From Saccharopolyspora sp. SCSIO 74807 (GTDB lineage: Bacteria > Actinomycetota > Actinomycetes > Mycobacteriales > Pseudonocardiaceae): a stretch of DNA of 64,000 nucleotides. A program made the translations under genes and the position numbers. Numbering within the stretch: the stretch's first letter is position 1; every line of letters begins with the position of its first letter. This document shows positions 16,135 through 24,590 of the stretch, in pieces. The stretch lies in contig NZ_CP146100.1 in the NCBI RefSeq assembly GCF_037023755.1, positions 5,425,501 through 5,489,500 of the forward strand. The letters are read 5' to 3'. The notes beneath the pieces are model-generated. The model saw only the letters and a list, made by a program, of their open reading frames with translations. It was not told the DNA's origin and did no database searches.

Positions 16135-16270
16135 GTCGGCTCTCCCGTCGGGGCTCGGGCGTGCGGGAGTGCTCCGCAGTGTAGGCAGCGCCGCGCGCGG
16201 CTCGGACGACTCGCCGGGACCGCGGAAGCCGGGCTGCGGCCGAACGCCGTCGGAGGGCCCGGGCGCCATC

Positions 16271-16318
16271 GAAGCGGGGCGCCACCGAAGCGGGGCGCCA
16301 CCGAAGCGGGGCGCCACC
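16271..16318. repeat. 16-bp tandem repeat, three copies
   Basis: The unit GAAGCGGGGCGCCACC occurs three times head to tail at 16271-16286, 16287-16302 and 16303-16318, with decayed partial copies on each side. It lies in the non-coding stretch upstream of the YkvA gene. No function is apparent. Confidence 0.85.
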
Positions 16319-16423
16319 GAAGGGCAGCGCGCCAGGCGCGAGCCTTCCCACGTCCAGGCTACCGGGCGGCAACTCGTGATCAATCGAGAGCCGGTTCAGC
16401 AATAAGGCACAGCAGTGATCCTG

Positions 16424-16470
16424 ATTACAACCTCGCTGCCCTGGGTTATTGTTGATGTGATGCGCAGCAC
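16424..16470 (+). promoter_or_regulatory. Promoter-like block of the alcohol dehydrogenase operon, shared with pqqA
   Basis: ATTACAA at 16424-16430 and TATTGT at 16447-16452 resemble a -35/-10 pair about 16-17 bp apart. They are followed by GATGTGATGCGCAGCAC, containing GTG-N8-CAC at 16457-16470. The same arrangement precedes pqqA at 20189-20236. The GTG-N8-CAC spacing equals that of actinobacterial Crp-type sites (TGTGA-N6-TCACA), so control by a Crp-like protein is possible. The 290-bp leader between this block and the first gene holds no convincing gene. Confidence 0.6.
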
Positions 16471-16650
16471 GCTCGAGAGGTGGCGAGTGACCTGTGCTGT
16501 CCGAGAACGGACGGTCGCGGCTCCTGCTCGGCGTAGACGAGCGGTGGCTGCCTGCCCACTTCGGTCCGGCCGGGTGCTGACGTTCCGGGAACCAACGCTC
16601 CGGTGTGGACACCAGGGATCACGGGCGAGCGAGTCCGCCGCGGCTTTCCG

Positions 16651-16688
16651 GAATCGGCGTGCTGGGTTCGGCGACGAGAGGCGGTTTT
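16651..16688 (+). repeat. Decayed copy of the pqqB start
   Basis: Positions 16651-16688 match 20492-20541, the ribosome site and first codons of pqqB, with four mismatches and a 12-bp deletion. In frame it would read VLGSATRGGF, like the pqqB start [10 protein letters not shown], then hit a stop. Together with the shared promoter block this suggests that the leader of the dehydrogenase operon derives from a duplicated pqqA-pqqB 5' region. Confidence 0.6.
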
Positions 16689-16760
16689 CGTGAGCAGCGA
16701 GATCAAGCGCACGCGTGATCACGGGTGTGGCGCACACGTGCACAGCAGGAGGTGGGACCG

Positions 16761-17225
16761 ATGACGGCCACTGCAGACGATCGGCAAGCCGAATTGACCG
16801 CAGCCGGCCTGTGCGGCCAGAACAAGGCGACGCTGGGGCGGATGCTCGGCACCGGGAACGTCGAGCACGCCGAGGAGGGGCCGGACGGCCGGATGCGCGC
16901 CACGGTCCGGATCCGGGAGGACGAACTGTGCTGGGACCCGGCGACGATCATCCTGCCGCACGGCGGTGACCTCGAGCTCACGGTCATCAACGACGACAAG
17001 AACACGCACTGCGCGGTGCTGCCCAGCAACGGCGACAACATGATCATTTGGTTGGTGAACCACTCCAAGGGCACGGCCGACCTCCGGCTGCAAGGGCCCG
17101 GTTACTACTGGTACAGCTCCACGACCGGCAACGACGAAGGCCGCGGCCTCACCGGCGCGATCGTCGTCAGCGGCGACGTCCCCAAGCACGCCCGGCTCGA
17201 CCGTCCCGCCCAGCCGCGCCCGTAG
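16761..17225 (+). CDS. Cupredoxin-like PQQ-associated protein (MSMEG_3727-like) without copper ligands
   Basis: 154 residues. The C-terminal two-thirds read like a cupredoxin beta-barrel (LELTVINDDKNTHCAVLP), with the first possible copper ligand His83. At the usual Cys-His-Met loop it has GYYWYSSTTGNDEGRGLTG (114-132), where Ser, Asn and Leu replace Cys, His and Met. A type 1 copper site is therefore unlikely. There is no signal peptide. An AGGAGG-type ribosome site precedes the ATG. It lies 13 bp before the PQQ dehydrogenase; such pairing is characteristic of an actinobacterial family annotated as PQQ-associated. A docking or electron-transfer accessory role is inferred. Confidence 0.8.
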   Translation: MTATADDRQAELTAAGLCGQNKATLGRMLGTGNVEHAEEGPDGRMRATVRIREDELCWDPATIILPHGGDLELTVINDDKNTHCAVLPSNGDNMIIWLVNHSKGTADLRLQGPGYYWYSSTTGNDEGRGLTGAIVVSGDVPKHARLDRPAQPRP

Positions 17226-17238
17226 ACAGGAGCACATC

Positions 17239-18921
17239 ATGACCGACTACGTCGATGCAGGTCAGGCCGTCCCGCTCGGGACGCTCAGCAACGTCAAGGG
17301 CAGCGCGCCCGCCACCGGGAACGTCGATTACGAGCGCGTGCGCAACGCCCGGTCGGAGCCGCAGAACTGGCTGACCTACTACGGCACCTACGACGGTCAG
17401 CGCTACAGCAGCCTGGATCAGATCAGCAAGGACAACGTCAAAAGCCTCTCTCCCGCGTGGGTGTTCCAGGCCGGTTCGACGGGGCTGCACTCCGGCGCGT
17501 CGACCTACTCCTTCGAAGCCGCCCCCATCGTCGTGGAGGGCATCATGTACGTGTCCGGCCCGGACGGGAAGGTCTGGGCGCTGGATGCGGAGACCGGCGA
17601 AGAGCTCTGGCGCTACAAGCACGCCTCCCCCTTCGACGTCTCGCTGTGCTGCGGGAACGTCAACCGCGGCGTGGCCGTGGGGCACGGCAAGGTCTACCTC
17701 GCCACGCTCAACGCCCACCTGGTGGCGCTGGACGCCCGGACCGGCGAGCCCGTCTGGGACGTGACCATCGGCGACGTGCGCGCCGGGGAGAGCCGCACCG
17801 TGGCGCCGCTGCTGGTCAAGGACATGGTTCTGGTCGGCAGCTCGGGCGGGGAGTTCGGCACCCGCGGGAACCTAGACGCGTTCGACGCGCACACCGGGGA
17901 GCGCCGCTGGCGCTGCTACACGATCCCCAAGCCCGGTGAGCCCGGATCCGAAACCTGGCCCGCCGACGGCGAGGCGTGGCAACGCGGCGGCGGCAACTGC
18001 TGGGTCACCCCCACCTACGATCCGGACCTGAACCTGATCTACCAGGGCACCGGCAACCCGGCACCGGACTTCGACGGCGCCGTGCGTCCGGGCGACAACC
18101 TCTACACCGACTGCGTCGTCGCCGTGGACGCCGACACCGGCGAGATCCGCTGGCATTACCAGTTCACCCCGCACGACCTGTGGGACTACGACTCCACGAT
18201 GGAGAACCTGCTGTTCGAGCACGAGGGGCGCAAGCTGCTCGCGCACGCGGACAAGAACGGCTACTTCTTCGTCCTGGACGCGGTCAACGGCGAGCTGGTC
18301 CGGGTGTTCCCGTTCGTCGACCGGATCACCTGGGGCGAGATCAGCCCCGAAGGCGAGGTCACCGCCAAGGTCTACCCGGACGCGGAAGGCGTGCCGGTGC
18401 ACTTCTGGCCGGGGCCGGCCGGAGGCAAGGAATGGACGCACATGGCCTACAGCCCGCAGACGGGGCTGATCTACGTGCCGGTGCAGGAAGTCGGGGCCAC
18501 CGCCACCCGCCGACGCCGCGAGTTCAAGGAAAGCATCCCGTACTGGGGCGCGGGAGTCGCCGTGGACCTCGACGACCACTACGGGTACGTGGCCGCCATC
18601 GACCCGCTCACCGGCGAGGAGAAGTGGCGCTGGCGCAACGAGTACCCGATGTGCGCCTCGGTGCTGACCACGGCGGGCGGGCTGGTGTTCACCGGACTGC
18701 CCACGGGTGAGTTCGTCGCCCTGGACGCCGTGACCGGCGAGAAGGTGTGGCAGTTCCAGTGCGGCAGCGGGCACCACAGCAGCCCGACCACCTACAGCGT
18801 CGACGGCCGCCAGTACATCGCGGTCCCGACCGGTTGGGGCGGCTGGATCGAGGGCTTCCTGCCCGGGCTGCTCGGGGGCTCGGCGGGCGACGCGCTGTTC
18901 TCCTTCGCACTGCCGGAGTAA
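17239..18921 (+). CDS. PQQ-dependent alcohol dehydrogenase, lanthanide-type (methanol/ethanol family)
   Basis: 560 residues of the eight-bladed propeller quinoprotein family. Key features are the vicinal Cys137-Cys138 disulfide pair over PQQ ([10 protein letters not shown]), metal ligands Glu205 (GGEFGTRG) and Asn273 (GTGNPAP), and catalytic Asp316 followed by Asp318 in HDLWDYDST. The D-Y-D pattern marks lanthanide-using enzymes (XoxF, PedH); calcium enzymes have a small residue at the last position. It oxidises a primary alcohol to the aldehyde using PQQ. Unlike the usual periplasmic enzymes it shows no signal peptide or Tat motif. A CAGGAG site supports the ATG. A strong hairpin follows the gene. 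Confidence 0.92.
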
Positions 18922-18929
18922 GACCGCAG

Positions 18930-18958
18930 CGGGGCGTCGGCTCGGAACCGACGCCCCG
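18930..18958 (+). terminator. GC-rich hairpin after the PQQ dehydrogenase
   Basis: An 11-bp perfect inverted repeat (18930-18940 with 18948-18958) encloses a 7-nt loop, starting nine bases after the dehydrogenase stop. There is no T-tract, as is common in high-GC actinomycetes. It may end the transcript or stabilise the dehydrogenase message relative to the downstream rubredoxin. Confidence 0.7.
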
Positions 18959-19054
18959 CGAGGTCCCGATCGACTCGAGAGGACGGGACACCGTGCAACT
19001 CCACGGCCGCGACGACGGCGGGGTCGCCCGGCTGCCCGGGGAACCGGCGAGCGC

Positions 19055-19270
19055 ATGAGCACCGATCGAACATTGGCGCAGCCGCAGACCAGGAGATGGA
19101 TCTGCGAGCTCTGCGGCTGGGTTTACGACCCCGAAGAAGGCGACCCAGACGGCGGCATCCCGCCCGGGACGCGCTTCGAGGAGATCCCCGACGACTGGAT
19201 GTGCCCGATCTGCGGGGCGACGAAGTCGGATTTCCGCGAGCTCGAGCCGGGCGAGCAGATCCCGATGTAG
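19055..19270 (+). CDS. Rubredoxin
   Basis: 71 residues with the two rubredoxin Cys pairs that bind a single iron: Cys17/Cys20 ([16 protein letters not shown]) and Cys50/Cys53 ([13 protein letters not shown]). The spacing and the aromatic core are those of a complete one-electron carrier. No alkane hydroxylase or rubrerythrin gene is adjacent. It lies between the PQQ dehydrogenase and a ferritin-like diiron protein, and is thus a candidate electron acceptor for the dehydrogenase or donor to the diiron protein. That wiring is inference. Confidence 0.93.
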
Positions 19271-19317
19271 TGCGACCCCCGATGCAATGAGGCCCCGATG
19301 CATGAGGACGCTGATCA

Positions 19318-20079
19318 ATGATCGCCGGGTACGACCACTTCGTCACCCTCGCCGATTCGCTGCAGTGGGACGAGTTCGCCCTCGACCTCGACGCCGACGT
19401 CCAGGCGTGGCCCCGATTGCGGGACGCGGAGCGCACCCAGCTGCTCGGACTGACGGCCGGCTTCTGCATCGGTGAGAACTCGGTCGCGGGCGAGCTCGGT
19501 TCGTTCCAGGTCGCCGCGGGCGACGAGTCGATGGCGGCGGCCTTCCGCGCGCAGGAGCGCGACGAGAAGCGGCACGCGCGGTTCTTCGACCGCGTCGCGG
19601 CCGAAGTGGCCGCCGTCCCGGGAGCCGACGTCCCGGCCCGGCTCGACGTGCTGCGCGAGCACGTCAGCCCCGAGATCGTGGAGCTGTTCGAGAAGCGGCT
19701 GCCCGCCATCGCCAAGCAGCTCGCCGACGACCACTCGGGGCTGGTTCCCGCGGTCGGGCTCTACCACATGATCCTCGAGGGCGTGGTCCTGCTGGCGGCC
19801 CAGCACGCCATGCTCGACGCGCTCGAGCACCTGTCGGTGCAGCTGCCGGGGCTGCACAAGGGCATGGAGCTGGTCCTGCGCGACGAGCGCTGGCACATCG
19901 GGTTCGGCTCGCGGGTAATCCAGAACGCCGAGATCCTCGACGACGAGATGGAGGAACTGCTGCGGGCGGGCGAGCAGGCGTCCTCCGCGTGGGGAGAGCT
20001 GATCTCGCCCGATGCCATCGAGAAGACCGCGCAACTGCACCGGCGCAGGCTCAAAGCCGTCAACATCAAGTTCTGGTGA
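19318..20079 (+). CDS. Ferritin-like diiron protein, ribonucleotide reductase R2-like
   Basis: 253 residues, mainly helical. Two ExxH motifs (Glu83/His86 in RDEKRHARFF and Glu190/His193 in LRDERWHIGFG) plus Glu in GENSVAGEL (53 or 59) and Glu154 (YHMILEGVV) supply the six ligands of a carboxylate-bridged diiron site. It is shorter than class I R2 and is unlikely to serve an NrdA, none being nearby. The context, just after a rubredoxin and just before pqqA, suggests an oxidase, oxygenase or peroxidase linked to PQQ metabolism. R2-like ligand-binding oxidases are an alternative family assignment. Confidence 0.8.
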   Translation: MIAGYDHFVTLADSLQWDEFALDLDADVQAWPRLRDAERTQLLGLTAGFCIGENSVAGELGSFQVAAGDESMAAAFRAQERDEKRHARFFDRVAAEVAAVPGADVPARLDVLREHVSPEIVELFEKRLPAIAKQLADDHSGLVPAVGLYHMILEGVVLLAAQHAMLDALEHLSVQLPGLHKGMELVLRDERWHIGFGSRVIQNAEILDDEMEELLRAGEQASSAWGELISPDAIEKTAQLHRRRLKAVNIKFW

Positions 20080-20188
20080 GCGGGTGCGCCCACGGCGAGC
20101 GTGCTCGCGTGCGCCGCACAACAGCTCCGAGCCACGCGGAGCACTCGATTCCCGGTCCGCAGCAGCGCGATCGACACGAGCGCTGCTC

Positions 20189-20236
20189 ATTACAAGCACG
20201 GTGCACCTCGGCTATGGTCGATGTGACACACAGCAC
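20189..20236 (+). promoter_or_regulatory. pqqA promoter-like block, shared with the dehydrogenase operon
   Basis: ATTACAA at 20189-20195 and TATGGT at 20213-20218 are separated by 17 bp, then GATGTGACACACAGCAC includes GTG-N8-CAC at 20223-20236. The last 24 bases match the block at 16447-16470 at 19 positions. It lies 42 bp upstream of the pqqA start, a normal leader length. Confidence 0.6.
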
Positions 20237-20278
20237 CTATGGCACAGCGCTGTCGTGCAGCTGAAAGGGGGTGCAGAC

Positions 20279-20374
20279 ATGGAGTCGGAAACCCCGCAAT
20301 GGGAGCCGCCCCGGTTCGAGGAAATCGGTTGCGCGGCCGAGGTGACGATGTACGTCGCCCAGGTCGAAGACTGA
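20279..20374 (+). CDS. pqqA: PQQ precursor peptide PqqA
   Basis: 31 residues, starting MESETPQWEPPRFEEIG. It carries the PqqA hallmark of Glu and Tyr separated by three residues (EVTMY, Glu21 and Tyr25), the two side chains that PqqE crosslinks and that become the PQQ skeleton. An AAGGGGG ribosome site lies upstream of the ATG. It is followed by pqqB after 125 bp. Its size and place just before pqqBCDE make the call secure despite its shortness. Confidence 0.93.
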   Translation: MESETPQWEPPRFEEIGCAAEVTMYVAQVED

Positions 20375-20499
20375 AACCGGCGAACGTTCTCGAGGCCACC
20401 ACGGACATCGGGCCGCCGGTGCCCGCGGTGGCCGCCTCGCCGCCGGAGCCGCGAGAGTCACCGCAACCTCACGATCAACTGTGGACACAAGGAGTCGGC

Positions 20500-21399
20500 G
20501 TGCTGGTGCGAGTGCTGGGTTCGGCGGCGGGAGGCGGTTTCCCGCAGTGGAACTGCGGATGCCCGGGTTGCCGGGCGGTGCGGGACGGTTCCCGGCCGTG
20601 CCTGCGACGCACCCAGTCATCGATCGCGATCAGCGCCGACCACGAGCAGTGGTTCCTGGTCAACGCATCGCCGGACGTGCGCGCCCAGCTCGAGGCGTCA
20701 CCGGCGCTGCTGCCCACCGCGGGCAGGGCGACACCGCTGCAAGGGGTGCTGCTCACCGACGCCGAGCTGGATCACGCGCTGGGCCTGTTGCTGCTGCGCG
20801 AAGCCGAATCGCTGGAACTGCACGCCACCGCCGCGGTCCACGAGACGCTGCGCACGGACAACTCCTTGCTGGCCACGTTGCAGGCCTACTGCCCGGTGAA
20901 GTGGCGGGAGGTCGTGCCCGGCGAGGACGTGGCGCTCGGCAACGGCCTGAGCTACCGGGCGTTCGACGTCCCCACCACCAAGCGGTCCCGCTTCGGCCCT
21001 GATCGCGGCCCCGGCAGAGTCGTGGGCTACCGCTTCACCGACGAACGCTCCGGACGTGCCGCGGTCTGCCTGCCCGGAGTTCAGGAGATCACCGGCCAGG
21101 TGCGCGAACAGCTGCGGGACTGCACCGGCCTGTTCATCGACGGGACGTGCTTCAGCGACGACGAAATGCCGCGGCTCGGCCTGGCGAGCAAGACCTCCCG
21201 CGAGATGGGGCACCTGCCGATGAGCGGTCCCGGCGGCAGCCTGGAGCAGCTCGCCGAGCTGCCCATCGAGCGCAAGATCTACGTGCACCTGAACAACACC
21301 AACCCGGTGCTGCTGGACGACTCGCCCGAACGGCGCGAGGTCGAGCGGCTCGGGTTCGAAATCGCCACCGACGGGACAGAGGTGCAGATCCGACCGTGA
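20500..21399 (+). CDS. pqqB: PQQ biosynthesis protein PqqB, metallo-beta-lactamase fold hydroxylase
   Basis: 299 residues. The start [20 protein letters not shown] is diagnostic for PqqB, as is [20 protein letters not shown]. PqqB is a non-haem iron enzyme of the metallo-beta-lactamase fold that hydroxylates the tyrosine-derived ring of the crosslinked intermediate. I chose the GTG at 20500, preceded by AAGGAG; longer frames upstream run through pqqA. Its stop overlaps the pqqC start (GTGA). Confidence 0.93.
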
Positions 21400-22103
21400 C
21401 GGCACTCGACGAATCGCGGACTACCGCAGGCACCGAGGAATTCGTGGCCGCGCTGCGCGCCCACGCGCAGCGGTACCACCACCAGCACCCCTTCCACGTG
21501 CGCATGAACGAGGGCAGGTTGAGCCGCGAGCAGATCCGCGGCTGGGTGGCGAACCGCTACTACTACCAGGAATGCATCCCGATCAAGGACGCGGCGATCC
21601 TGTCGAACTGTCCCGATCCGGCGGTGCGGCGCCGCTGGATCCGGCGAATCCTCGATCACGACGGGACCGCGGACGAGCCCGGCGGCATCGAAGCGTGGCT
21701 GCGGCTGGCCGAGGCGGTGGGCCTGAGCCGCGAAGAGGTCCGCGACGAGCGCCACGTCGTGCCCGGGGTGCGGTTCGCCGTCGACGCCTACGTGACCTTC
21801 GCCCGCACCCGGCCGTGGACCGAGGCGGTCGCTTCCTCGCTGACCGAGCTGTACGCACCGGACCTGATGAGCCGCAGGCTCGCCGCGTTCGAGCAGCACT
21901 ACACCTGGGTCGACCGCGAGGGCCTGGCCTACTTCCGCAACCGCCTGGAGCAGGCCCCGCGCGACTCCGAGCACGGCCTGCAGGTGACCACCGAGCGGTG
22001 CCGCTCGGCCGCGGAGCAAGAACGGGCGCTGGCGGCGCTGTCGTTCAAGTGCGACGTCCTCTGGAGCATGCTCGATGCCATCGACCAAGCCCACCCCGGC
22101 TGA
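21396..22103 (+). CDS. pqqC: Pyrroloquinoline-quinone synthase PqqC
   Basis: 235 residues, normal PqqC length. Recognisable stretches include [48 protein letters not shown] and the C-terminal [19 protein letters not shown]. PqqC is a cofactor-free oxidase that performs the final ring closure and eight-electron oxidation to PQQ. The GTG start at 21396 overlaps the pqqB stop, indicating coupled translation. Its 3' end overlaps pqqD by 29 bases. Confidence 0.94.
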
Positions 22104-22395
22104 GCCCGCCCGGCTGCCGGACTCGGCCCGGCCGCAGCTGACGACCGGGCTGCGATTGACCTTCGACGAGGTCCGCGCGCGGGACGTGCTGCTGGGCCCC
22201 GAATCGGTGCTGGTGCTCAACCCGACCGGCGCGGCCATCCTGCGGCTCTGCGACGGGCGGCGGGACATCGGCGAGCTGATCGCCGAACTGCAGGCGCGCT
22301 TCGCAGGCGTCGAGCCCGGCGAGGTGCGTGCCTTCCTCGACCAGCTCGCCGCCAAGCGGTGCGTGGAGGCCGCCCATGACCGACATGAAGCCTAG
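22075..22395 (+). CDS. pqqD: PqqA-binding chaperone PqqD
   Basis: 106 residues of the winged-helix-like PqqD family (RiPP recognition element). The core is [20 protein letters not shown], then [19 protein letters not shown]. PqqD binds the PqqA peptide and presents it to the radical SAM enzyme PqqE. It overlaps pqqC at its 5' end and pqqE at its 3' end, so the pqqBCDE genes are tightly coupled. Confidence 0.92.
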
Positions 22396-23476
22396 CCCGT
22401 TCGGCCTGCTGGCCGAGCTGACCTACGCCTGTCCGCTGCACTGCGCGTACTGCTCGAACCCGCTCAACCTGGCCGACTACCGCGATGAACTGTCCACTGC
22501 GGACTGGCAGCGCGTGCTGCGCGAGGCGCGCGATCTCGGCGTGCTGCAGTTGCACCTATCCGGCGGGGAACCGTTGCAGCGCCGCGACATCGTCGAGATC
22601 GTGCGCACCGGCAGCGAACTCGGGATGTACACGAACCTGATCACCAGTGCGCTCGGACTGTCCCGCAGGCGCGCCGAAGAGCTGCGCGCGGCCGGTCTCG
22701 ACCACGTGCAGATCAGCGTGCAGGCCGACGAACCCGCCACCTCCGACCGAATCGCAGGCACCCGCTCCTTCGCCCGCAAAGCCGATGCCGCACGAATGGT
22801 CAAGGAATTGGGATGGCCGCTGACGGTGAACGTGGTGCTGCACCGGCAGAACATCGACCGCATCGCCGAAATCCTGCGCCTGGCCGAGGAATTGGGCGCC
22901 GACCGGCTGGAACTCGCCAACACCCAGTACTACGGCTGGGCCTGGCGCAACCGGGACGCGCTGCTGCCCGGTCGCGGCCAGATCGAGCGGGCCGAACAGG
23001 TGGTGCGATCCGAGCGGGAACGCCTGCCGCACATGGAAATCATCCACGTGCTGCCCGACTACTACAGCCAGTACCCCAAGGCGTGCATGGGCGGATGGGC
23101 GCAACGCCAGCTCACCATCGCGCCCAACGGGGACGCCCTGCCCTGCCCGGCAGCGCAATCGTTGCCGCTGCCGCGGGAAAGCGTGCGCGAGCGCCCGTTG
23201 GCGCGGATCTGGCAGGAATCACCGCTGTTCGAGGCGTTCCGCGGCACGGACTGGATGCCCGAGCCGTGCCGGAGCTGTTCGCGCCGCGACGTCGACTTCG
23301 GCGGCTGCCGCTGCCAAGCGTTCCAACTCACCGGCGACGCCGCGCGCACCGACCCGGTCTGCCACCTCTCGCCGGACCGCGAACTCGTCGATCAGGCGGT
23401 ACGTGCGGCCAACGCGAGCGAGGAAACCGTCCGCGGCGAGCTCACCCCGCGGCCGCATCCGCGAGACCAGCGTTGA
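22376..23476 (+). CDS. pqqE: PqqA peptide cyclase PqqE, radical SAM enzyme
   Basis: 366 residues. The radical SAM cluster motif is at the N-terminus (CPLHCAYC, Cys19/23/26), in the sequence AELTYACPLHCAYCSNPLNL. The C-terminal SPASM-type region has further Cys residues (EPCRSCSRRDVDFGGCRCQA) for auxiliary iron-sulfur clusters. PqqE links Glu and Tyr of PqqA by a C-C bond. The ATG at 22376 lies within the end of pqqD. No pqqF/pqqG protease gene follows, so peptide trimming must rely on another protease. Confidence 0.94.
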   Translation: MTDMKPSPFGLLAELTYACPLHCAYCSNPLNLADYRDELSTADWQRVLREARDLGVLQLHLSGGEPLQRRDIVEIVRTGSELGMYTNLITSALGLSRRRAEELRAAGLDHVQISVQADEPATSDRIAGTRSFARKADAARMVKELGWPLTVNVVLHRQNIDRIAEILRLAEELGADRLELANTQYYGWAWRNRDALLPGRGQIERAEQVVRSERERLPHMEIIHVLPDYYSQYPKACMGGWAQRQLTIAPNGDALPCPAAQSLPLPRESVRERPLARIWQESPLFEAFRGTDWMPEPCRSCSRRDVDFGGCRCQAFQLTGDAARTDPVCHLSPDRELVDQAVRAANASEETVRGELTPRPHPRDQR

Positions 23477-23480
23477 CGGG

Positions 23481-24590
23481 CTAATCGCTGTCCAGGGGAA
23501 CCTCACCGAAGGCCATCAGGCTGATGACGAAGTAACCGATGTAGAGCGCGAGCAGAACGGCCCCGTGCCAGCGGCGCAACCGCCCGGTCGCCAGGAAGAT
23601 CGCCGAGAGGACCGTCATCACCAGCAGCACGGGAAGGTGCCAGGACAGCACGTTCGCGTTGACCGTGATGGCCCCGCCCACCAGCAGCACGATGCCGAGC
23701 TTGCCGGTCACCGAGAACACGATGCTGCCGATGACGTTGGCGACGCCGATCTCCGGCGCGCCCCTGCGTGCGGGCTCCACGGTGAGGAAGAGGTCCTCGA
23801 GGGAGAGCACCAGCGTCGCGATCGTGACGCCGAAGACGGTGCCGTCGATGCCGAACTCGTCGAGGATCCCGTCGGTGCCCTGTCCCGCGATGCTGGCTCC
23901 GACGACGAGACCGGCCAACGCCAGCACCGCGAGCGCGAGACCGGCCCACAGGGGCCGTTGACGGGCTTGCACGAAGCCCTGGTCGACGCGCAGGTCGTTC
24001 GGGAGGGCGAGTCCGCCGGAACCGGAGGGCCCTGCGTCGTCCGCCGCATCGTCGCTTTCGGCCGCTGCGGCGGTTGGCGTCGCCGCTGCACCGGTGCGGG
24101 TGCCGACCTTCTCGACCTGCTCGTAGAGCTCGGCGTTGCGGAACACCGGGCGTCGCGATGTGTATTCGCGATAGCCGATCCAGCACACGAACGCCACGAA
24201 CAGGACCAGCAGCACGATGCCCGTGACCGATGTCAGCGCCCCGGTCAAGGCCAGGGCCCACAGCACGACCGGCCCTGCCACGAAAAGCGCGAGGTAATCC
24301 TTGGGAACGTCGACGCGGCACGGAGCGATCAGCGCTGCCAACGCCAGCACGATCCCCGTCATCGCGATCGTCGTGCCGATCACCGTGCCCAGGGCCACGT
24401 GCTCCAGTTCGTCGACGTTGAGCACGATGCCGAATGCCAGATCGTCGAACTCGATCCCGGTGAACACGACCGCGATGAGGAACAGCGAGACCGCCCACCT
24501 GCTGGCCACGCCGACCAGGAACCCGATGAGCTTCTCGGCGCTGTAGACCAGCAGTGCGATGCCCAATGCGAACTCGACGACCGGGATCAC
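23481..24590 (-). CDS. Sodium/calcium exchanger-family cation antiporter
   Basis: 369 residues with about 10-11 hydrophobic segments in two related halves. Each half has an acidic alpha-repeat: FTGIEFDDLAFGIVLNVDEL in the first and VLSLEDLFLTVEPARRGAPE in the second. This is the layout of the CaCA superfamily. A long charged Ala/Asp-rich loop (about residues 165-205) joins the halves. It starts at GTG with GAGGAG seven bases upstream. It converges on pqqE with a 4-bp gap, so it is not part of the PQQ operon. Ion specificity is not readable; calcium would be of interest beside a PQQ enzyme but is not required by the lanthanide-type site. Confidence 0.85.
   Translation of the reverse strand: MIPVVEFALGIALLVYSAEKLIGFLVGVASRWAVSLFLIAVVFTGIEFDDLAFGIVLNVDELEHVALGTVIGTTIAMTGIVLALAALIAPCRVDVPKDYLALFVAGPVVLWALALTGALTSVTGIVLLVLFVAFVCWIGYREYTSRRPVFRNAELYEQVEKVGTRTGAAATPTAAAAESDDAADDAGPSGSGGLALPNDLRVDQGFVQARQRPLWAGLALAVLALAGLVVGASIAGQGTDGILDEFGIDGTVFGVTIATLVLSLEDLFLTVEPARRGAPEIGVANVIGSIVFSVTGKLGIVLLVGGAITVNANVLSWHLPVLLVMTVLSAIFLATGRLRRWHGAVLLALYIGYFVISLMAFGEVPLDSD

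Follow-up and report, generated by a model that had tools for sequence, protein, structure and literature searches.

In this work, we analyzed a 64,000-nucleotide stretch (hereafter, the window) of the 6.69 Mb, single-contig genome of Saccharopolyspora sp. SCSIO 74807 (contig NZ_CP146100.1, positions 5,425,501 to 5,489,500), focusing on a plus-strand gene set located between positions 16761 and 23476. This set codes for a partner protein, a pyrroloquinoline quinone (PQQ) alcohol dehydrogenase, a rubredoxin, a diiron-type protein, and the products of pqqABCDE. An initial annotation, made from the sequence alone, had listed these genes, and the existence of each of them was confirmed by a match with a curated family. 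The same annotation had placed the beginning of the set at 16424, while the first gene begins at 16761, and it had overlooked a convergent cation exchanger gene at 23481-24590.

The first gene (16761..17225) encodes a member of the MSMEG_3727 family of PQQ-associated proteins (TIGR04339/PF23509, 261.6 bits vs. a cut-off of 75), with a cupredoxin fold and devoid of both the blue-copper Cys and a signal peptide. About four near-perfect 16-bp tandem repeats lie upstream of it (16261-16322). The dehydrogenase gene follows (17239..18921; TIGR03075, 628.4 vs. a cut-off of 480.05); its product harbors the Asp pair D316/D318 and a CC pair (137-138) and likewise has no signal peptide. After its stop codon, the RNA fold of 18918-18965 (−34.6 kcal/mol) predicts a hairpin at 18929..18959 with a 12-bp perfect stem and a 7-nt loop, possibly a terminator or processing hairpin ahead of the next gene. 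This is the rubredoxin gene (19055..19270; PF00301, 86.4 vs. a cut-off of 23; NF045768, 91.4 vs. 90), and it precedes the one coding for a short, ferritin-like, R2lox-like dinuclear-metal protein in which the fatty-acid tunnel residue is closed (19318..20079; PF00268, 36.0 vs. 33.6; AlphaFold2 (AF2) model with a predicted local distance difference test score (pLDDT) of 92.7). The pqq genes come next, all over their cut-offs: pqqA, for the precursor peptide (20279..20374; TIGR02107, 32.4 bits), pqqB, whose start codon is uncertain (20500..21399; TIGR02108, 384.5 bits), pqqC (21396..22103; TIGR02111, 342.2 bits), pqqD (22075..22395; TIGR03859, 68.3 bits), and pqqE (22376..23476; TIGR02109, 518.8 bits). 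On the minus strand, the overlooked gene (23481..24590) encodes a CaCA-type cation exchanger with the acidic alpha motifs GIEFDD and SLED (PF01699, 103.2 vs. 24.9, in two stretches). The CxxCH pattern of c-type cytochromes was absent from both strands between 12001 and 28000, in agreement with the earlier statement that no cytochrome c gene is present.

The gene set was compared with its relatives in 297 genomes of the host family, from which stretches were hand-picked among the search matches; these searches scored the best 6 to 12 first-look candidates per genome, and absences are therefore less sure than presences. The counts of transporters and KatG given below refer to 81 loci longer than 5 kb with a match to the partner or the dehydrogenase, four of which are partner-only and several of which are cut by contig ends; locus L198, whose partner is below the cut-off, was excluded from locus counts.

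Cellular Location of the Dehydrogenase and Its Partner

The PQQ alcohol dehydrogenases studied so far act outside the cytoplasmic membrane. The export signal typical of the studied TIGR03075 members was found neither in the window dehydrogenase nor in its relatives, as the initial annotation had claimed for the dehydrogenase and its partner. The in-frame DNA upstream of the two genes was read by eye for hydrophobic segments, back to the stop codons at 17056 (dehydrogenase) and 16716 (partner), and none was seen; a hidden upstream start or signal peptide is excluded by these stops together with the short start common to the relatives. Indeed, 76 out of 77 dehydrogenase genes in the fetched loci share the same start pattern, that is, M or V, one to five residues, and YV[DEQ]A, the sole exception (L165) having the variant MTIEYTDAG. 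Moreover, the top 12-residue mean hydropathy within the first 50 residues from the beginning of the match is 1.4 for 76 dehydrogenases and 1.6 for 81 partners, as compared to 2.7 for the first helix of the exchanger. A cytoplasmic location of both proteins, in this genome and in the related ones, is thus well supported on sequence grounds, and the formaldehyde-fixation genes of the ribulose monophosphate (RuMP) pathway found near sister systems (see below) agree with it. The intracellular dehydrogenase postulated at the outset is, at the level of the sequence, the best reading.

Metal Site of the Dehydrogenase and Nature of the Partner

The nearest solved relatives of the dehydrogenase are 6zcv and 6zcw (quinoprotein ethanol dehydrogenase), which we take to be of the PedH kind. 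The WDYDS stretch of the window enzyme aligns with WDFDG of these two structures, while 1flg and 1kb0, presumably Ca enzymes, have Ser or Thr at the position of the second Asp; the second Asp of the D-x-D motif is the mark of lanthanide enzymes. Furthermore, residues C137, C138, E205, N273, D316, and D318 are invariant in all 76 dehydrogenases. The D-Y-D signature and the CC pair reported by the initial annotation were thereby corroborated and, at the level of the sequence, the enzyme possesses a PQQ site and a lanthanide-type metal site. It shares the family (TIGR03075), the PQQ and metal-site residues, the lanthanide-type second Asp, and the CC pair with PedH/PedE and XoxF-type enzymes; unlike them, the window system has no signal peptide and no nearby CxxCH, and it includes a copper-less cupredoxin-fold partner and an associated exchanger.

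As for the partner, the cupredoxin-like fold suggested earlier was retrieved, since its model (pLDDT 73.5) matches cupredoxin domains, but the copper site was not: no Cys occurs after residue 84, and the conserved blue-copper Cys is absent from the C-terminal copper loop. In the family alignment (30 rows) no Cys is invariant, and the only column with Cys in at least 10 rows adjoins His83 (24 out of 30). Because of this lack of an invariant Cys, a type 1 copper carrier function is improbable for the partner, and such an electron carrier was ruled out among the candidate roles on account of the lost Cys. A partner of the same family is known from Mycobacterium smegmatis (MSMEG_3727; PMC3023750, PMC6529628), where MSMEG_3726, reported as the single PQQ alcohol dehydrogenase, and the PQQ genes make up a single cassette (PMC3023750).

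Two observations concern the neighborhood of these genes in other genomes. Four loci (L159, L160, L161, and L163) carry lone partner genes in 18-kb stretches without a dehydrogenase, in genomes that hold the diiron gene and another partner. A small Cys-rich protein (L185:10203-10481; 93 residues as read), with no Pfam match, is encoded near the dehydrogenase in eight loci without the diiron gene.

Cation Exchangers Associated with the System

Three transporter families occur near the system, i.e., CaCA (PF01699), MntP (PF02659), and GDT1 (PF01169). At least one of them is present in 61 of the 81 loci (31 out of 36 with the diiron gene and 30 out of 45 without it) and in none of 20 arbitrary 19-kb control stretches, taken one each from 20 family genomes carrying the system; 48 out of 68 transporter genes lie less than 1 kb from a core gene. 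Among the 297 host-family genomes, the partner was found in 91 (90 over the cut-off, G543 being below it), the CaCA subfamily of the window in 62, and the MntP subfamily in 33, and all the genomes with either transporter are partner genomes. In other words, CaCA or MntP is present in 89 of the 90 genomes and in 0 of the 207 others (Fisher's test, 3e-76, with related genomes at full weight and hence uncorrected for kinship); the only over-cut-off partner genome lacking both, G679, is 59% complete. Both subfamilies coexist in six partner genomes, as compared to about 23 expected. On the dehydrogenase tree, the transporter type switches at least eight times, both with and without the diiron gene; therefore, judging from the tree, two unrelated transporters, CaCA and MntP, seem to have replaced each other repeatedly. 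In the phylum sample, MntP is clearly beside the pqq genes in five out of eight loci from another family.

The window exchanger has the two alpha repeats of PF01699 in common with NCX_Mj and the other CaCA proteins. Its second motif bears Glu-Asp (SLED) where NCX_Mj has Pro-Glu, and the first one (GIEFDD) has Asp-Asp, its equivalence to the NCX_Mj motif being our own reading. The extra acid in these motifs might suit a highly charged ion. The supply of Mn to the diiron protein was also considered as the purpose of the transporters; this is disfavored because they are also present at loci without the diiron gene, in the proportions reported above.

The Rubredoxin and the R2lox-like Protein

Besides this rubredoxin, no PF00301 match was found in the genome, and the diiron gene has one full-strength copy; two weak R2lox-like relatives are encoded elsewhere (G000:C1:50277 and 1207570). 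The diiron gene was found in 31 of the 297 host-family genomes, all of which have the partner gene, and 60 out of the 91 partner genomes (G543 included) are without it. A diiron protein 100% identical to that of the window is encoded on a contig of Saccharopolyspora sp. HNM0986. In a phylum-wide search of 396 genomes, the full-strength protein was retrieved from the source genome only, 38 others reaching at most 158 bits.

In 35 out of 37 loci with room for it (loci longer than 5 kb and a diiron protein of at least 55% identity; L047 is cut off), the rubredoxin gene precedes the diiron gene at a distance of no more than 600 nt, and the order of the blocks varies, the pair being placed before the partner gene, after pqqE, or between pqqA and pqqB. 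In L018, L020, L024, and other Actinomycetospora loci, two pqqA-like genes are present, one before the rubredoxin gene and one before pqqB. Thirty-five dehydrogenases share their locus with a diiron gene; 33 of them form one clade (Shimodaira–Hasegawa-like approximate likelihood ratio test (SH-aLRT) 100), which includes L044, devoid of rubredoxin; the other two, from Solirubrobacterales and also without rubredoxin, fall outside it. Hence, a lack of conservation of the two genes with the dehydrogenase, which had been put forward as evidence against the proposed electron path, was not observed inside the clade.

The first 33 structure matches of the diiron protein model are all R2lox proteins, and the nearest NCBIfam models are R2lox as well, all under their cut-offs (best score 70.5 vs. 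194). The six metal ligands and the Val-Tyr pair, which makes an ether cross-link in GkR2loxI (V72 and Y162) as reported in PMC6060897, are kept in 30 out of 30 R2lox-like proteins of this type. In contrast, the tunnel residue corresponding to position 171 of GkR2loxI is Leu in 25 and Phe in 5 of the 30 sequences, as against Ala in 31 out of 31 R2lox-like relatives. This Ala is described as conserved across R2lox, and the GkR2loxI variant A171F is reported to exclude the fatty acid, with cross-link formation and O2 activation continuing (PMC6399176). With the tunnel Ala lost, the protein is therefore R2lox-like yet without a defining feature, and a large substrate is disfavored. A branch with support 100 sets the 30 proteins apart, with the caveat that long branches may be meeting. 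To sum up the comparison with R2lox, the fold, the ligands, and the Val-Tyr pair are the same, while the window protein differs in length (253 residues vs. 316-330), in the tunnel residue, in its own side of the tree, and in its usual rubredoxin neighbor. A rubredoxin beside a ferritin-like diiron protein also occurs in the rubredoxin-rubrerythrin peroxidase pairs; the window protein is R2lox-like and not a rubrerythrin.

KatG in Sister Systems

A catalase-peroxidase (KatG) gene is present in 29 of the 45 loci without the diiron gene and in none of the 36 loci with it, nor in any of the 20 control stretches. In all 29 loci it is on the strand of the partner gene, from which it is less than 1 kb away in 25. 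A further 16 loci were considered outside the 81, namely eight of the nine over-cut-off matches from outside the host family plus another eight from within it that have no diiron gene: a clear transporter was found in 11 of them (a twelfth at 29% identity), KatG in seven, and the diiron gene in none. The distribution suggests that KatG and the diiron gene are mutually exclusive at these loci.

LytTR-type regulators are encoded near KatG or the dehydrogenase in many loci (e.g., L166:3932-5383 and L162:6266-7600) and are candidate regulators of the system. A third module was sought by eye upstream of six loci with neither KatG nor the diiron gene (L070, L071, L170, L177, L186, and L190), and nothing common to them was seen.

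RuMP and Formaldehyde Genes and the Possible Substrate

The 29 KatG-type loci also embed genes for 3-hexulose-6-phosphate synthase (HPS, in 10 loci), Rpe (13), RpiB (11), GlpX (11), Fba (8), Tkt (5), and Pfk (4), none of which occurs in the 20 control stretches. Representatives of HPS (TIGR03128), Rpe, RpiB, Tkt, Fba, and Pfk are over the curated cut-offs and that of GlpX is under it. The source genome itself holds a second system of this type (G000:C1, about 6135700-6159700; L064 and L260), where Fba, dehydrogenase, partner, KatG, CaCA, Pfk, GlpX, pqqA, HPS, Rpe, Tkt, RpiB, and pqqEDCB genes lie within about 25 kb; by its gene content, it looks like a methylotrophy island.

The presence of RuMP genes around sister systems implies that the dehydrogenase family plausibly includes cytoplasmic methanol dehydrogenases, and methanol is likely the substrate of the sister clade, as its gene neighborhoods indicate. 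RuMP methylotrophs are known that oxidize methanol in the cytoplasm with NAD enzymes (Bacillus) or a nicotinoprotein (Amycolatopsis); one sister clade likewise has its dehydrogenase genes together with HPS and RuMP enzymes, the dehydrogenase here being a PQQ enzyme of the lanthanide type. As for the window, no RuMP or formaldehyde dehydrogenase gene was found in it (tblastn, eight queries), and methanol would be a fair guess for its dehydrogenase. A glutathione-independent formaldehyde dehydrogenase is encoded near eight Actinomycetospora loci with the rubredoxin-diiron pair (one representative, TIGR02819, 745.6 vs. 637; the others 85-96% identical to it); these loci count as few events because much of their synteny is common. 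In Actinomycetospora callitridis, a second diiron gene (L032) lies in a RuMP cluster with pqqA and CaCA, with no dehydrogenase or rubredoxin in view.

Proposed Mechanism and Alternative Explanations

Altogether, these data point to a quinoprotein alcohol dehydrogenase system of actinomycetes that stays in the cytoplasm instead of being exported and is equipped with an exchanger and with a module handling peroxide or O2, a reading to which we assign a probability slightly above one half (about 0.53). According to this model, the dehydrogenase and its copper-less partner would work in the cytoplasm, with the PQQ genes adjacent. The family would include methanol dehydrogenases releasing formaldehyde in the cell; for the window enzyme, too, the likely substrate would be methanol or another small alcohol like it. 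The exchanger would set the cytoplasmic level of the metal of the enzyme (a lanthanide, or Ca2+), in either direction. Some or all of the electrons might reach O2, giving peroxide or superoxide, which many systems would counter with KatG encoded beside the partner; in the clade of the window this task would fall to the rubredoxin and the short R2lox-like protein, the latter reducing O2 or H2O2 with rubredoxin electrons. The rubredoxin, in turn, might be reduced either by NAD(P)H via a reductase or by the dehydrogenase itself. The exchange with KatG and the closed tunnel both favor an O2 or peroxide role of the R2lox-like protein.

Some data weigh against this model. The CC ring of the known enzymes is made outside the cytoplasm, and we know of no R2lox acting as a peroxidase. 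The hairpin at 18929-18959 separates the dehydrogenase gene from the rubredoxin gene, and no rubredoxin gene stands beside the diiron genes of L032, L044, and Solirubrobacterales. On the dehydrogenase tree, KatG changed three times and the diiron gene twice; with so few independent events, their exclusion is suggestive and not strong. For 12 of the 76 dehydrogenases, neither gene is in view. Similarly, the RuMP linkage amounts to one or two events on the same tree, and no RuMP gene was found near the 36 loci with the diiron gene plus the partner or the dehydrogenase. Lastly, 20 of the 81 loci have no transporter in the stretch examined, and the roles known for CaCA, MntP, and GDT1 proteins are mostly in Ca2+ or Mn2+ export, so that metal supply is not the sole reading of their presence.

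This record underlies the alternative that survives best, in which the exchanger exports Ca2+ or Mn2+, guarding the enzyme or its neighbors against an unsuitable metal, and in which no lanthanide is carried across the membrane for this enzyme. The family names (sodium/calcium exchanger, divalent cation/proton antiporter, manganese efflux pump) and the export roles of these families agree with it. Such needs are general, yet the subfamilies occur only with the dehydrogenase system in the host-family sample; we regard this explanation as possible, though unlikely.

Still less probable, in our view, is a module in which the R2lox-like protein, fed by the rubredoxin, acts as a hydroxylase on a substrate and so supplies the alcohol for the dehydrogenase to oxidize. 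AlkB, AlkG, and AlkJ act as a hydroxylase-rubredoxin-dehydrogenase module of this sort. The R2lox-like sequence and fold, as well as the formaldehyde dehydrogenase near the eight Actinomycetospora loci, would fit the scheme, and GkR2loxI is reported to be an alkane monooxygenase encoded beside alcohol and aldehyde dehydrogenases (PMC10867098). However, the Leu or Phe that replaces the tunnel Ala in all 30 proteins speaks against it, although a small substrate might still fit, and a hydroxylase role is not possible for the KatG that accompanies the partner in sister systems.

The electron path originally proposed, from the alcohol through PQQ and the rubredoxin to the diiron protein acting as a terminal oxidase or peroxidase, appears improbable. 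The tight, clade-specific linkage of the rubredoxin-diiron pair, the single rubredoxin match in the genome, and the lack of a nearby cytochrome c pattern speak for it. On the other hand, the diiron gene is missing from most partner genomes, so that the enzyme family functions without its product; for the same reason, and because the second dehydrogenase of the source genome has KatG instead of the pair, the path is not general. Moreover, rubredoxin potentials are usually below those of PQQ enzymes, and the reduction of rubredoxin by PQQH2 would consequently be uphill. What stands of the proposal is the O2 or peroxide half of the diiron role, which we favor, while a direct feed from the dehydrogenase to the rubredoxin would be possible in the clade of the window only.

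Equally improbable is a role of the pair in PQQ synthesis or maturation rather than with the dehydrogenase, a reading backed by the order of genes in Actinomycetospora. In 17 loci, pqqA directly precedes the rubredoxin gene, and in 14 of these pqqB comes after the pair (in 4 directly, in the others after a second pqqA); moreover, pqq genes adjoin the diiron gene of L056 and L058, where no dehydrogenase was seen. However, sister loci have complete pqqABCDE operons without the pair, and the partner gene lies elsewhere in four out of five outlying genomes checked, including those of L056 and L058.

Significance for Actinomycetes and for the R2lox Family

The cytoplasmic system proposed here can be extended, tentatively and with the odds against the whole of it, to an entire lanthanide-based methanol economy inside Gram-positive cells, in which PQQ would be made and used inside, an exchanger would import the lanthanide or keep it at a suitable level, with two unrelated transporter families able to stand in for each other, formaldehyde would enter the RuMP cycle, electrons would pass to O2 without cytochrome c, and either KatG or an R2lox-like reductase fed by the rubredoxin would dispose of peroxide. 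Among the literature matches listed, judged by titles and the starts of abstracts, with few subscription journals covered and the combination of RuMP and PQQ not queried, there was no cytoplasmic or signal-less actinomycete PQQ dehydrogenase, nor these transporters with one.

If the model is correct, a cytoplasmic lanthanide-type enzyme would need the transport of lanthanides across the Gram-positive membrane. A Gram-negative TonB-ABC system is described as taking lanthanides up into the cytoplasm (PMC7391723), and a Gram-positive counterpart was not among the literature matches listed, as judged by titles and the starts of abstracts. Two interchangeable transporter subfamilies co-occur almost perfectly with the system, which would make them direct candidates for such transport. 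The system would also represent a new way of making formaldehyde beside the RuMP cycle. Regarding the R2lox proteins, described in 2018 as having no known physiological function (PMC6060897) and later proposed to hydroxylate alkanes (PMC10867098), the window provides, for an R2lox-like member, a putative redox partner and role that can be put to the test; if confirmed, the rubredoxin would be the first redox partner for a protein of the R2lox kind.

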